Shown: positions 72 to 57,091 of the stretch, in pieces
Layout: each line of letters starts with the position of its first letter
Numbering within the stretch: position 1 is the stretch's first letter
From: Ascidia mentula
Taxonomy: Eukaryota > Chordata > Ascidiacea > Phlebobranchia > Ascidiidae
Direction of reading: 5' to 3'
Assembly (NCBI GenBank): GCA_947561715.1
Contig: OX387204.1
Coordinates: 15,939,001 to 16,003,000 of the forward strand
DNA: 64,000 nucleotides
Translations under genes and position numbers: made by a program
Notes under the pieces: generated by a model
Databases searched by the model: none
What the model was told of the DNA's origin: nothing
What the model saw: the letters and a program-made list of their open reading frames with translations, nothing else

Positions 72-22973
<22,902 letters not shown>

Positions 22974-23932: not shown

Positions 23933-25456
23933 TTAAATGCAATCTTCAACGTCACTCATGCAATTAACATCATAAATTAGTTTGACATTTAAATTATTAT
24001 CTGTCACATAGTTATGCAATTGAATAAAATGTGAACAGTGAATATCTTGACATTCCATGAAAGTGATTTTAGAAAGATTCCCTTCGCGCAAAACCAGATC
24101 CCATAATGTTTCAGAACTTACACATTTAGAATCACTAACATCGAGATGCTCCAACGATTCTAGATGCCCATGTTCCAATGCTTCCTGTAGGAGTTGGTTA
24201 ATACCTGGGTGTGGCATTGCATTAATTCTGGCCTCAATTAGGGTCTTACGCGACCCAGCAAATATCTGTTTCAACACAGAGATATCAGAACTGCAGACAT
24301 TGTTATTCCCAAAGCCAAAGTGCAAAGACATTATTTCAAGTTTGGACCACGGAGAATGATTCAGGACACGATTAGCTTGAAATGCCTCAAAAGAATCTCG
24401 CACATTAACAACAGTTTCATCAACACAATGCATGCTCAATTGCATGGTTACTAAATTGGGACACTCTTTTCCAATATATTCAATGTAAGAAAAAGGTGCA
24501 TTCCAGTCAACATTTAGAGACATGAGGCAACTACCCCGCACACTGATAATATCAAACATTTCAATATCCATTGGGTGTGACATATACTGCATAGAAAGGT
24601 GTTTAAACTGGGGAAGGCATGCCATCACTTTTGAAAAGTCCACTGAACCCTTCAAATCCGTCATGGGTATTGGAAATTCATAGACAAGTCCAGTCAATGC
24701 AAACATGTGAGTGTAGTTGGTCTCTTCACAAATCTGAATGACTGCTTTCCAAAGTTCTGCATGTCCTAAAGTTGTTATTTTTGGGCACCAATCAGATAAT
24801 ATATTTTTCAGTAATTGACCTTCATCTTCACCAGGGGAGTTAAACCATGTCATGTGCAACACCTTTAAAGTTTCAGAAACATCAGTATATTGTTGTTCTT
24901 CTGTGCTTTCGTCTGTTCTAAAAAGCTTTCTTACTTTACTTGCTGCCAATCCATTGGTATGTGAAATATTTAACACAAGGAGCTTTTTACAATACAGACC
25001 AATGGACTCCATGACTTTACCATCCATTTTTGTATGACTTATATCCAAGTTGGTGAGGCTGGCTCCAAATTTTTTTACCAGCTCCACAATTTTTCTGCTT
25101 GAAATACGATTACAGGAATCCAAGTTTACAGAATTTAAATGGTCACATCTCTCTATTGTGATATCAATAAGCTCATTCGTGACGTGTTTAGGTGCCATAG
25201 AAAGGTCTAGTTCAACGAGAAATGGGGTGATAAGCAAATGGAGATGAAGCTTTTTTAGCTTTCTTCTCGCGTGCATTGCCTGTAAGATCTTTTTCAGACA
25301 TATGGTGTCCAAGTAATGAAACGGCCCAATAACAAATTTTAACTTGTGATTTGCGAACTTTTCCCGAAAATCGGCACACCACAAATTGTCCATGTTGTCC
25401 GCAATACTGGCAACACAAAGGTCGCCAAGTTTTTCTGTGTACTTGTGCAATGGCAT
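23933..25456 (-). CDS. Intronless leucine-rich-repeat protein with BC-box-like N terminus
   Basis: A single-exon frame of 507 aa. The first ATG in frame gives MPLHKYTEKLGDLC; an upstream TGA near 25.49 kb closes the frame, and the codons between lack an ATG. The body is built of irregular AMN1/ZYG11-style LRRs (LNSVNLDSCNRISSRKIVELV, LTNLDISHTKMDGKVMESI, LLVLNISHTNGL, LEHLDVSDSKCVSSETLWDL). Residues 10-18, LGDLCVASI, fit the elongin BC-box pattern L-x3-C-x3-[AILV]. I see no canonical F-box, signal peptide or membrane segment. A role as a cullin substrate receptor of the ZYG11/PRAME kind is an inference. It converges with neurobeachin and is divergent to the RhoGAP gene. With no introns among intron-rich neighbours, it could be an old retrocopy that kept an intact frame. 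Confidence 0.9.
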   Translation of the reverse strand: MPLHKYTEKLGDLCVASIADNMDNLWCADFREKFANHKLKFVIGPFHYLDTICLKKILQAMHARRKLKKLHLHLLITPFLVELDLSMAPKHVTNELIDITIERCDHLNSVNLDSCNRISSRKIVELVKKFGASLTNLDISHTKMDGKVMESIGLYCKKLLVLNISHTNGLAASKVRKLFRTDESTEEQQYTDVSETLKVLHMTWFNSPGEDEGQLLKNILSDWCPKITTLGHAELWKAVIQICEETNYTHMFALTGLVYEFPIPMTDLKGSVDFSKVMACLPQFKHLSMQYMSHPMDIEMFDIISVRGSCLMSLNVDWNAPFSYIEYIGKECPNLVTMQLSMHCVDETVVNVRDSFEAFQANRVLNHSPWSKLEIMSLHFGFGNNNVCSSDISVLKQIFAGSRKTLIEARINAMPHPGINQLLQEALEHGHLESLEHLDVSDSKCVSSETLWDLVLREGNLSKITFMECQDIHCSHFIQLHNYVTDNNLNVKLIYDVNCMSDVEDCI

Positions 25457-26344
25457 TGTCACCTTTGCTGCCAATATATGACTAGTAGCACCTCAGAAAA
25501 CAATAACAAACCATGTAAACCTATTCACGTTGCCCGCACTATAAGTTTTCACATCATTAGGTTTTACCTCATCCGTTATTGCCGTAATTAAAAACGCATT
25601 TGCTAAAGTAACTTAAAAGTATCCATTACAGTTTTAAATTTTAGTTACATTTTCATGAATTTTTGTCAAACTGACAATAATAAACACCATATACAAAAAA
25701 ATTTCTTTTATTAGAATTCGAAAAAAAGATGTTTCTGCTAAATTTAAAAGGCGTGGGGTAATTTGGTGACAATTGTTAAATAAATTATAGCATAATTTAC
25801 AATACCAAATAATGTTATCATTAATCTAAAAATTGTTTATGTTATCGCTGTCGTCGGATGCGAGGAGGTAAAGGTATCGAACAATGGCAATTGGCAAACT
25901 GCTTCAAGCTTGAAGGGTTTGTTCGTGACAAAGCAAACAGTGAAATAACCTTTATGTTTCTTGTAAGTAGCGCGTAGTGTCACGTAGTTCAATATTACAG
26001 ATATATGCTGTGAAACAGTAAAAGTGCCAACACATTATGTGTAACGATACGATATAACATCAGTTTATACAGTGATAATAAAAACACTATAATAAATGGC
26101 GGAACAAGTCCCAACAACATAGTATAGGGATGGGATCATGCCTTATAATTTCAAATACGTCGGTTGGTATTAGGCTATTGTCATAAATGAAAGTCGAAGA
26201 TGTTCTGCATGTATAAATGTGATGGCTAGTTGGGTAATTTACTGATAATTCCTCTTTTTGTATGTTGTAGGAGAATTTTGAGAAAACTGTTGTCTTTATA
26301 TTCTTCAGTTCATTTAAAGCTCAGTTTCTGGGACAGATAAAAGA
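25457..26344. promoter_or_regulatory. Divergent intergenic region between LRR and RhoGAP genes
   Basis: An 888-bp AT-rich spacer between two outward-facing start codons (25456 minus, 26345 plus), so it probably holds both promoters. Two good acceptor-like sites just upstream of the RhoGAP ATG (ending 'gttgtag' about 26271 and 'ttcttcag' about 26311) could mark a 5' UTR intron or a spliced-leader site; tunicates use SL trans-splicing. Confidence 0.5.
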
Positions 26345-34221: not shown

Positions 34222-34478
34222 ACAACCGATGGCGATCAGTGAGCTGCAGAGAGTGCAAGTTGTTTCGACCTAACACTTCATCAGTGCAGTGTTGGTCAAA
34301 GAGTCCAGTAGGTTTCAAGTAATTAGGCAGAAAGTTTGCGACAACCGCCGATCCGTTAGGTGCCAAACCATGAGGGCGAAACACATACAGTATGGCTGGC
34401 TGTTAAGCTCACAAGACCGTCCGTGGTCAACAACTGCACTGATGAGACCTGATAGGTCAAAACAGCCTGAACTGCCTC
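34222..34478. repeat. Degenerate hammerhead-family inverted repeat
   Basis: The left end on the minus strand has CTGATGA, a ggtcGAAAC block and a TGCAGCTCA arm. The right end on the plus strand has 'ctgcactgatgagacc' and 'aggtcaaaacag', in which the GAAA box is changed. Layout resembles the inverted copies at 16.7 and 36.9-37.2 kb, but the body between the ends has diverged. Confidence 0.6.
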
Positions 34479-35731: not shown

Positions 35732-38700
35732 TCATGCCGATATACTGTTTATAAGCTGATCTTCGTAGAGTGAAAGAAGAAGAAGGATTGCCCATCCCAT
35801 CAGCATCCCCAGATTTTGGACGAGAAATTGAGCTATCGGGTAGCCAGTTTCATCTGCAACCATTTCATGAAGCTGCACAAACACACCGTTGCCTTTATAT
35901 TGTGTCGTATTGTTAGTTAGTATATTTTTAGATCAAAAAGTTTCTAATTTCTGTAATTTTAAGAAGATAGGCTAAAAATAACAGCATTTGACGATACACA
36001 CTTTGTAATGCTTTGTTTAATGTATTTTCAAAATTTAATACAAACAAATTAGCCAATGCAATAGTCGAGAATTTCATGATACAGACGTTTCGATTGCTGT
36101 ACTACAATCATTTTCAATGTATAATGCAGGCGAGCCGTCAAAACGGTGCGATGAAGTGCCATTTTGTTTGTATTGAAGATTTACTAAACCGTCAGTTACG
36201 TTCCTATTTCCAAACTATTTCAAAATCCCGCAAGTATTTGGATACTTCCAGAACATAAACAAAAAACTCAAAGAACAAAAAGGCTGGCCCATATTGCAGA
36301 AAACATGGACAACATAAGGTTAGCCCTTTTGTTCTTCGAATAATGTGTAAATTCGTGAAGAAAGTTTCTAAAACACGACGAAATATGTAAAAATATGTAC
36401 TTACGACATTGACAAGAGCAATGTAAAGGAACATGCCGCCCACTATGGCCAAAAGCCAGTGTCGAACTTCCACGTTAGAGGAGAGGGCGATTCCAATGTA
36501 AAGACCAATAAAAGAACAACAGGCGGCCGCAAAATTAAGCAGGAGAGCCTTCCATTTGGATAAGCCATTACGCATGTAGATGGCGAAGTCCCCTGGACAA
36601 AACAGAATATATCGTTTTTTAATTAATAGGTCTTGACTAGTTTACAACTAAATTGGTTTCGAAACATTTTAGTGTTTTGCTAGAAACGTAACAACCTTGC
36701 TTCTGTTGTAAGTCAACTTTTCAACAAACAATATGATTGTAAAGAAGCTTCCACTGCAACGGATTAAGAAAAATCAGGTTCGTCTTATAAATTAATTTGC
36801 TTCAAAACGTACCAATTATAATAAACAACGATGACTTAATGACGAAAGGCAGCCTAACTTTCAAACAAATGAAATTTTAAATGAGAAAGACAAGTTTTTA
36901 TTGTGTAAGCTGCATACAGATAGCCACTGTTTCGACCTACAAAGTTTCTCGATCAAGTGTTTCCACCTTATTGTTTTCTCCGTAAGGTTGCACCTAGTTT
37001 GGTGCCCTGCGGATTACGGTGATTGTATAGTCACCACAAAGTGGAAGTCTTTGCTTGGCCGTTTGGTCGGCAAAGTCGTCTGATATAGACACATCAGTTG
37101 CACTGATGAGACCTCATAGGTCGAAACAGTGGCTATCTGTCAATTCGTATTATTGGCTCCACTTTGCTTATCATAAGTTTTTATATTTAACAATATTAGG
37201 CATTAACATAAATATTTTCAGAAATGAATTTTATTCAACAATGAATGCATAAAAGACAAAAGTTGGCAAACGTTCGCCTGTCGGTCGACTCACCAAACTC
37301 GTGCGGCAACTCGTGACAGAAGATAGCGAGGGAGGTTCCAATTCCTTGAACCCAGGAGGCACTGAAAGCGGCCCCCAAAGCGATGCCGTCACCGAAATTA
37401 TGAAGTATGTCACCGATAAACACCATGATACAGAGGGTGTTTAATCCTACAATAAACCAAAAGTGAATTAAGGAATTAAAAGTATTTCTATTGCATTGAG
37501 CCTCAGCAAAACAAATAGGATTTTTGTTGAACTAATTGTACATGCAACTTATTTTAAACCATCACTAAACGCCATGGAAATTGTTCTTTGGACCAACTGT
37601 GGTGACTCGAATATCTGGTTTTGTGAATAATGCACAATATAGTGGCGTTATAGACTGCAGTTCATTACGTCTTGGTGCAATGCCTTTGTCACGTTCTGAA
37701 TCTACGCAAGAAGTATAATGAAGCTGGAAGGGAAGTCATCAGATTTAAGCGAGTAAACGAGTTTGGTTTGGAACATCGCCATACGAAGAACAAAACGAAA
37801 CTGGTCGTGCTGGGCGGCAATTATTCTGTAAAAGGCTAGAAATCGCATTTTTGGAAAATCCCAAACTGACGAAACTTCTCTTAGATACCTTTGGGGTTTT
37901 ACTGTCTGCGTTATTATGATTGTCATTAGTGTCATATTACTGTTAAAGTTTAATGGCGAAAAATCCGTTCCAACGGGGAGATTTGTATTTGTAAATTTCA
38001 CTTTGGTGTAGAAAAATATATCTTACCTCCGCAAACTGGAGCATCCACCTTCTGCTTAGTTTCCTCAGCCTGAAATTGAGCAACAAATTTACAGGTTTTT
38101 AAAAAAAATTGGCCAGTTTTTTAATTTTATTCAAATTTCAGATGTAATTGTTAAAAGGTGGAAATATCAACATATCTATCAACACTTTTAAATGCGTACA
38201 TTGTAAACGTCATGACGACATGAAATGGTTTGGGCGGGAACGAATAACGAGAGTGTTTAAATTCAAATGTTATTGGACACGTGCGACCGCAAATTTGAAA
38301 AGTTTGTTGATTCGCTGATCGAAACTGGAAACATTTCCACGAATCCAAATATTTCCGGGCATTGAATGACTTGGTCTTGAGACTGCCTGGCAACCTACCC
38401 GGAATACGTCACCGTTGGTTGGCGGGGGCTGCGAGTCCGATTCACTGAACTTCGTCACGTGACAGTGTACGTTGACGGCGCTGTGGCTGTGATCGTGAGT
38501 CTAGAAAACGAGATGGATCATTTTTGAAGCATATTTTAACTGCAAGCGACAAACATTAAAATTCGCGGAAAAAAACGTTCATGAGATAATTTCCTATTGT
38601 TATCAAAAGAACAACGCAGTAGTTCGAGCTCCAATGTTCTTTGGTTCAAAATAAAACAAGAGATCGATGCGGTCACGAAAGAAAAAGAAACCGTTATTCG

Positions 38701-56398: not shown

Positions 56399-56639
56399 CT
56401 GCAGGTGAGGATATATGTTTGATATGATTATTCTAAACGCAACACGAGCCAACTTTAGTGCAAACACCGGTCAAATTACTGTTTTTTTACTTGTCGGCGT
56501 TTTTACAAATGTTGATATTCGAAGTGCATTAAAGGAAATTATGCTTTCCAAACTAAAACCATAATTTAGTGAATGCAGAACACAGCCACCGACTTACGGA
56601 GATACTAAATCTTCCAAATAAGTATTATTCATTGCGTAA

Positions 56640-57091
56640 AAGCTGCAGACAGATGGCCACTGTTTCGACCTAAAGGGTCTCATCAGTGCAGCTGCTATAA
56701 CTATCAGACGACTTTGACTAAACGGCCAAGCAAAGACTGCCACTATGTGGTGACTATACAATCACCGTCATACGTTGAGCACCAAACTAGGTGCAACCTT
56801 ACGGAGAAAACAAGGTGGAAACACTATGACCAAGCAAAGCTTAACCAATAGTGCCGTCAGGCCCCGTGTCGCAAATGATCATATGATAAGCAATGTGGAG
56901 CCACTAATATGAATTGTGTATAAGCTGCAGACAGATGGCCACTGTTTTTTTTGTTTTTTTTTGGAAGGTCTCATCAGTGCAGCTGATGTGACTATCAGAC
57001 GACTTTGCTGACCAAACGGCCAAGCAAAGACTTCCACTTTGTGGTGACTATACAATCACCATCATCCGTTGGGCACCAAACTAGGTGCAAA
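56640..57091 (-). repeat. Tandem two-unit array of the hammerhead-bearing repeat (retrozyme-like)
   Basis: Two consecutive units in minus orientation. The start 'agctgcagacagatggcc' at 56641 recurs at 56923, a period of 282 bp. The second unit is partial and ends within 'accaaactaggtgca', near 57.09 kb. Both units share the body blocks 'acggccaagcaaagac', 'gtggtgactatacaatcacc' and 'gcaccaaactaggtgca'. Unit 1 has an intact ribozyme; in unit 2 the core is interrupted by a T-rich tract. Confidence 0.9.
56641..56693 (-). ncRNA. Type I hammerhead ribozyme
   Basis: Same fold as 16708-16760: stem I AGCTGCA/TGCAGCT, CTGATGA, stem II GACC/GGTC with loop CTTTA, GAA, stem III ACAG/CTGT with loop TGGCCAT, cleavage C. 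All core nucleotides are conserved and every stem is fully paired. The only differences from the 16.7 kb copy lie in the stem II loop, as expected for a structure under constraint or of recent common origin. Confidence 0.88.

Follow-up and report, generated by a model that had tools for sequence, protein, structure and literature searches.

What kind of element is the short tandem repeat with hammerhead motifs at 56640..57091 of the DNA analysed here, and what spreads its relatives through the genome? The stretch (hereafter the window) comprises 64,000 nucleotides of Ascidia mentula DNA (GenBank assembly GCA_947561715.1, contig OX387204.1, positions 15,939,001 to 16,003,000) and is located on a contig matching A. 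mentula chromosome 8. From the structure of its relatives we consider it probable that the repeat is one worn copy (L047) of a family of non-autonomous retrozymes that resident Penelope-like elements (PLEs) mobilise in trans through their machinery. Insertions of this family have outward-facing arms with two fixed ends (A and B), are flanked by target-site duplications (TSDs), show a target preference and contain near-uniform units, and the PLEs of the same genome leave matching scars.

The window copy and its family

The head-to-tail repeat described in the initial annotation is real, identities within its direct-repeat families D1, D2 and D3 being 93, 88 and 93% and their spacings 294, 282 and 291, respectively. 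The exact spacing of 282 bp claimed for it holds for the start of the hammerhead ribozyme (HHR) only; D1 and D3 lie 291-294 apart because the second unit contains a T-rich tract and small indels, and family units measure 283-286 bp. The first HHR proved as complete as had been proposed, on the minus strand, which the earlier description omitted: stem I (AGCUGCA/UGCAGCU) is followed by CUGAUGA, stem II (GACC(CUUUA)GGUC) by GAAA, and stem III (CAG(UGGCCAU)CUG) by UC, with the predicted cleavage point between 56648 and 56647. The break in the second core by the T-rich tract was likewise found, with the loss of one stem II strand and of GAAA. L047 shares about 89% identity with the family unit. 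Neither a TSD nor a B arm was detected at this old copy, which should therefore not release a monomer. The circular RNA of 282 nt once suggested for it does not agree with these data nor with the length of full units in the family, and L047 was ruled out as a source of such circles because its second HHR is broken.

A genome-wide search for further copies, as had been suggested, found them in abundance. The sequence searched amounted to 195.8 Mb in 79 contigs, slightly less than the published kaAscMent1.1 assembly (197.0 Mb, 95 scaffolds; PMC11109543); its COX1 gene is read well when AGR stands for glycine, as in ascidians. A 541-bp query gave at least 100 matches; there were 2234 first-look candidates, 40 of which were scored. 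The pattern CTGATGAGNNNNN{0,9}CGAAAC occurred 2419 times (1198 + 1221), a figure that pools every hammerhead family, including others than this one, vs. 4 (2 + 2) for the reversed control. With one unit taken from each of 39 loci, mean variability was lowest in the HHR core (0.0018), followed by the remaining HHR (0.0072) and the other parts of the unit (0.0213; P = 0.02 for HHR vs. rest). The excess over the control, the number of matches and the low variability of the HHR indicated that the hammerhead in the window is more than a chance likeness.

Forty family loci (L002, L009-L047) were clustered by eye from the positions of the query matches. Full units in loci with several of them were 283-286 nt long, and a second subfamily presented a 293-bp unit (L079) that can be aligned to the first over its full length and differs in stem III. 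GC content was 0.467 in the main and 0.464 in the second subfamily. The circular units contain no ATG frame longer than 46 and 45 aa, respectively, and so have no coding capacity; with no long frame, the element does not qualify as a PLE in spite of its PLE-like insertion. The circular unit folded more stably than shuffled sequences (z -3.2 in the main and -2.3 in the second subfamily).

Apart from these, L080, L083 and L084, with the hammerhead loop CTGACAG, form a third hammerhead family; their sequence stays alike beyond the A/B region, so they may lie within a longer element of another kind.

Ends of the insertions and of resident PLEs

Arms faced outward in 20 of the 21 loci having ribozymes on both strands, L025 being the exception. 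When positions are numbered u1-u285 from just after the cleavage site (reference unit from L017), the outer end of an arm fell either near u16 (end A, ..TATACACAA|) or near u46 (end B, ..CACATTGCTTAT|), about 16 and 46 nt beyond the cleavage site, respectively, and about 30 nt apart. By script, the 40 loci were classed as 26 A+B, 10 A, 1 B, 1 B+B, 1 B+o29 and 1 A+o7. Three were reassigned from the alignment: L024 to B only, since what had been scored as the second end is part of a different copy about 1 kb off; L026 to A+B, its u29 being an A end plus a chance extension; and L029 to A+B, 'o7' being another copy and the real left end B. The final classes were 27 A+B, 10 A only and 2 B only (L024, L039), with L025 left unclassed. 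A+A and B+B were never found among the 40 loci, setting aside the nested L025 (B+B by script); were ends chosen independently at even odds, 27 mixed pairs out of 27 would have a probability of 7e-9. In L025 one retrozyme has apparently inserted in the hammerhead of another; its arms face inward and no TSD was found.

The same arrangement was seen beyond these loci. In the second subfamily, L076 and L077 were A+B with repeats of 8 and 12 bp, and L078 has the same flanks as L077. Two further copies of the first subfamily (L081, L082) were both A+B. Among four copies chosen from the pattern list regardless of score, L094 was A+B by eye, L091 and L092 had single short arms and L093 was complex.

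Flanking repeats of at least 9 bp were present at 32 of 39 loci (L035 left out) vs. 55 of 1482 cross-locus control pairs, and repeats of at least 12 bp at 28 of 39 vs. 5 of 1482. Lengths were mostly 12-13 bp (12 bp in 16 loci, 13 in 8, 14 in 3, 10 in 2, 9 in 2 and 16 in 1). The 32 loci with repeats include 25 of the 27 A+B loci; in the other two a repeat was seen by eye outside the script frame (L034) or was degenerate only (L021). In the 16 of 32 loci with a repeat of exactly 12 bp, GTT stood immediately outside the TSD nine times on the A side and five times on the B side, against a background of 2.5%; this preference was spotted by eye and then counted in the same loci, and the P values are after the fact.

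The resident PLEs presented equivalent scars. A genome search with the PLE piece of the window gave 151 matches, many as outward pairs. In 12 of the 15 two-arm copies of PLE1, PLE2 and PLE3 examined, the ends were A+B with repeats of 12-16 bp, and A and B were 24-44 nt apart (median 31.5); the longer of the two corresponds to the PLE 'tail'. The remaining three pairs had one B and one odd end (L071, L056/L051) or an identical flank on both sides (L068). The flanks of L068, a PLE1 copy, match over 218 bp at 99%, perhaps through a later inverted duplication. Open frames reached 814 and 642 aa in L068 and 634 aa in L069; RVT_1 scored 29.2, 30.3 and 29.8 bits in these PLE frames (cut-off 29.6), and a GIY-YIG match in the PLE protein reached 20.1 bits, below the cut-off of 22.6. 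No match was obtained for the PLE1 protein in PDB up to E 1, nor for the open frame of the window PLE in Pfam at 0.001. The core of the PLE2 hammerhead (L070-L073) reads CTGAAGA and, to judge by sequence, may be active; the variant position is variable among hammerheads, and searches for CTGATGA overlook this core.

The two-arm insertions, the fixed A/B ends and TSDs like those of the resident PLEs favour the view, put forward in the initial annotation, of a retrozyme-like locus whose copying probably relies on PLE machinery. The features of the window are collected in Table 1.

Table 1. Position and structure of retrozyme and PLE features in the window
Feature	Position	Strand	Structure
Retrozyme copy L047	56632..57090	minus	single arm, about 1.7 head-to-tail units; RNA 3' end = end A near 56632, RNA 5' end = u133 at 57090
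Type I HHR, intact by sequence	56641..56693	minus	53 nt, full core and three stems
Second HHR, broken	56923..56984	minus	T-rich (RNA: A-rich) tract replaces GAAA and one stem II side
Another family copy	16663..16862	minus (16663-16763), plus (16762-16862)	outward arms, HHR core in each
Third, more diverged family copy	36902..37180	minus (36902-36948), plus (36956-37180)	outward arms, 84-87% identity
PLE1 piece	21274..22618		two outward arms; endonuclease ends, minimal hammerheads; B at the left end, A at the right
Left TSD of PLE1 insertion	21261..21273	plus	13 bp, ATAAAGTGTGAAC
Right TSD of PLE1 insertion	22619..22631	plus	13 bp

The plus arm of the copy at 16663..16862 ends within the ribozyme. 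The window also contains, at 34284 (minus), a diverged hammerhead-like motif and, at 34427-34464, a short stretch matching the second subfamily. Beside the PLE, a 513-aa open frame (23933-25474, minus) looks by eye like a leucine-rich-repeat protein, and a tandem array with a 9-base unit (GGCCCGCGA, 10 copies, 97% matches) occupies 1923-2012.

Template, mechanism and alternatives

The steps that we infer, transcription, cleavage, circularisation and copying by a PLE protein, would run as follows. Transcripts of tandem copies would be cut by the hammerhead and the monomer closed into a circle, and this RNA circle would probably be the template. The PLE protein (reverse transcriptase plus GIY-YIG endonuclease) would cut both target strands with a stagger of about 12 bp, GTT being preferred just outside; reverse transcription would begin inside the retrozyme RNA at A (about 16 nt) and B (about 46 nt), one start per target strand, and both cDNAs would circle the template, often for more than one round, joining where they meet. 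The outcome would be two outward tandem arms, one ending in A and the other in B, flanked by TSDs.

The lengths of the arms bear on the template. Among 68 aligned arms, 66 extended beyond the cleavage point, 47 were longer than one unit and the longest had 5.9 units, and the 5' end lay within 3 nt of the cleavage site in just two (L040, L045). A filter (40 nt, 88%) had taken out 11 of 77 segments, nine of them other or diverged pieces and two real 38-nt arms of L026 and L040 (the latter with its 5' end at the cleavage site), which were restored to the counts; the short B arm of L013 stands outside all of them. A monomer cut and left linear could yield arms of no more than about 46 nt, stopping at u1, and so is not the usual template. 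Separately, 16 of 66 arm 5' ends in the 40 family loci fell within u230-u253, 24 nt at the hammerhead start near the self-complementary AGCTGCA; the two cDNAs may be joined by short homology there.

Units were nearly uniform within an insertion, with a mean of 0.82 differences vs. 7.32 after permutation (0 of 500 permutations as low). In 14 of the 16 loci holding several full units the unit length was constant, and in five the units were identical; L013 and L020 varied. Together with the strict A+B pairing, this uniformity fits one monomeric circle per insertion.

The strongest rival keeps the PLE machinery and replaces the circle by a multimeric RNA transcribed from a genomic tandem array and left uncut, the HHR being idle and the A+B pairs arising from an asymmetric enzyme dimer. 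It draws on work with the Anolis PLE protein, in which HHR mutants left insertion in vitro unchanged and unprocessed RNA was taken as the main substrate (PMC11167929, as far as the available text goes). Units of L013 (up to six differences) and L020 (up to four) are non-uniform, which favours a multimer, and young arrays, being uniform, would produce uniform transcripts. Just 22 of 50 units came out closer to the insertion containing them than to every other one in a strict nearest-neighbour test, a result explained by the many insertions that have identical units in common. A multimer, however, contains several A and B sites, so that A+A and B+B pairs should occur too if the enzyme allowed them, and none was resolved among the 27; moreover, the two arms of one insertion differed by a mean of 0.48 (23 unit pairs), which speaks against such a template. 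We regard this rival as unlikely, with a distinctly smaller chance than copying from a circle, while noting that a uniform multimer with an asymmetric enzyme dimer would leave an equal pattern.

Mobilisation by long interspersed nuclear elements (LINEs), with convergence accounting for the PLE resemblance, appears very improbable, judged from the retrozyme and PLE insertions and not from LINEs of this genome: LINE twin priming also yields inverted arms (PMC2837659) and LINEs were left open as helpers in the available text of a 2020 paper (PMC7229834), but fixed second ends would not be expected of them, whereas retrozymes and resident PLEs both have fixed ends, one of each. An ordinary satellite carrying its hammerhead by descent and spread via unequal crossing-over is scarcely credible, for in spite of head-to-tail arrays of about 285 bp the copies are dispersed over all nine large contigs listed, with arms of at most 5.9 units, and the head-to-head pairing of copies and TSDs far over the control refute satellite DNA.

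Several observations weigh against the hammerhead assignment or against the preferred explanation, PLE-driven copying of an RNA circle, which is drawn from genome sequence. Thirteen of the 40 loci were not A+B, and the loci are the best matches to a two-unit query, so that long copies are over-represented. The covariance-model check suggested for the hammerhead was not passed: an Rfam scan of the window gave no match at gathering level, and a permissive scan, whose table contained no type I hammerhead model, gave weak scores for Hammerhead_3 (21.6 bits, E 0.062) and RAGATH-1 (22.9 bits, E 0.24). The HHR fold of the 53-nt ribozyme (-13.8 kcal/mol) lay 2.7 higher than the predicted optimum (-16.5), the ribozyme was no more stable than shuffled sequences (z -0.79), and the HHR was absent from the predicted fold of the circular unit. 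GTT was found next to 4 of 6 flanks in PLE2, 1 of 10 in PLE1 and 1 of 4 in PLE3 (10 of the 15 pairs, without L053, L069, L071, L056/L051 and L068). Beyond chance, the end module of the main retrozyme subfamily had no likeness to any PLE module; that of the second subfamily showed a weak likeness to PLE2, equalled in 40, 10 and 86 of 2000 shuffles for the three real copies. Clear homology between retrozyme and PLE end modules did not emerge, and the likelihood given to the preferred explanation does not depend on it.

With GTT seen for PLE2 and not for PLE1 or clearly for PLE3, no one PLE family is singled out as helper; the scars support copying by PLEs for one genome. We further raise, tentatively and at somewhat less than even likelihood, the idea that the hammerhead has the same job in retrozymes and PLEs, namely making a monomeric RNA circle. 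As the PLE enzyme would start a few dozen nt past the cleavage site, a linear monomer would yield almost no copy and full copying would need a circle. With a single A and a single B site per circle, serving one cut target strand apiece, the strict pairing of A with B and the outward orientation of the two arms would follow, and RNA-seq should lack reads that stop at the cleavage site, where a circle is unbroken.

Comparison with known systems

The element is of a known type, and its interest lies in the mechanistic evidence. As far as the available text of the published accounts goes (PMC7229834 and the 2020 review PMC7761336), animal non-LTR retrozymes have type I HHRs in tandem units that code for nothing and measure a few hundred bp (about 150-450), GC below 50%, no reported LTR features, TSDs longer than 4 bp and many dispersed copies. 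The A. mentula family has type I HHRs, units of 283-286 or 293 bp, GC below 50%, no coding sequence and, at 32 of 39 loci but not at L047 itself, TSDs exceeding 4 bp, and by repeat length, HHR type, GC, lack of coding and TSDs it appears to belong with them. Head-to-tail repeats are described in the available text of those accounts, whereas outward arms, paired A/B ends and 12-bp TSDs, found in A. mentula, are not; circular RNA, the key trait, was shown there and is a prediction for our family. Tunicates are unnamed in the available text of both, and another tunicate, Didemnum, has type I hammerheads at nine loci according to the part available of PMC8704543.

Plant LTR retrozymes, as portrayed in the available part of PMC7761336, are similarly non-autonomous, processed by hammerheads and expressed as circles, the last two being conjectural in A. 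mentula; they differ in having type III hammerheads in LTRs, a primer-binding site and polypurine tract, and 4-bp TSDs, and are thought to use Gypsy machinery. For animal retrozymes, PLEs, LINEs or others have been proposed as helpers, with PLEs a strong candidate by co-occurrence (PMC7229834), and the review, in its available text, states that they lack any conserved motif telling which autonomous element mobilises them (PMC7761336). The link between PLEs and retrozymes has so far been conjecture in these sources, and a literature search giving ranked lists of open-licence PMC papers found no report of paired A/B ends in a retrozyme and PLEs. Their occurrence in both within one chromosome-level genome is structural evidence on what moves animal retrozymes.

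PLEs resemble the family in their outward or inverted arms, an optional tail of 30-40 bp at one end, TSDs and a hammerhead just upstream of the start sites (PMC11167929 and PMC3846280, from the available text); they differ in coding for a reverse transcriptase and an endonuclease and in having minimal hammerheads, whereas the retrozyme codes for nothing, and the ends of the two share little sequence. Rotifer PLEs have an optional 31-bp tail, inverted pLTRs and TSDs of 8-10 bp (PMC3846280). With purified Anolis PLE protein, cDNA starts at two adjacent internal sites bounding the 'tail', and both target strands are cut and extended (PMC11167929, 2024). The extension of about 30 nt by which B exceeds A in the retrozyme matches this tail. 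The role of hammerheads in PLEs has been termed a mystery (PMC7761336), and the paired A/B ends give a testable idea of what it may be.
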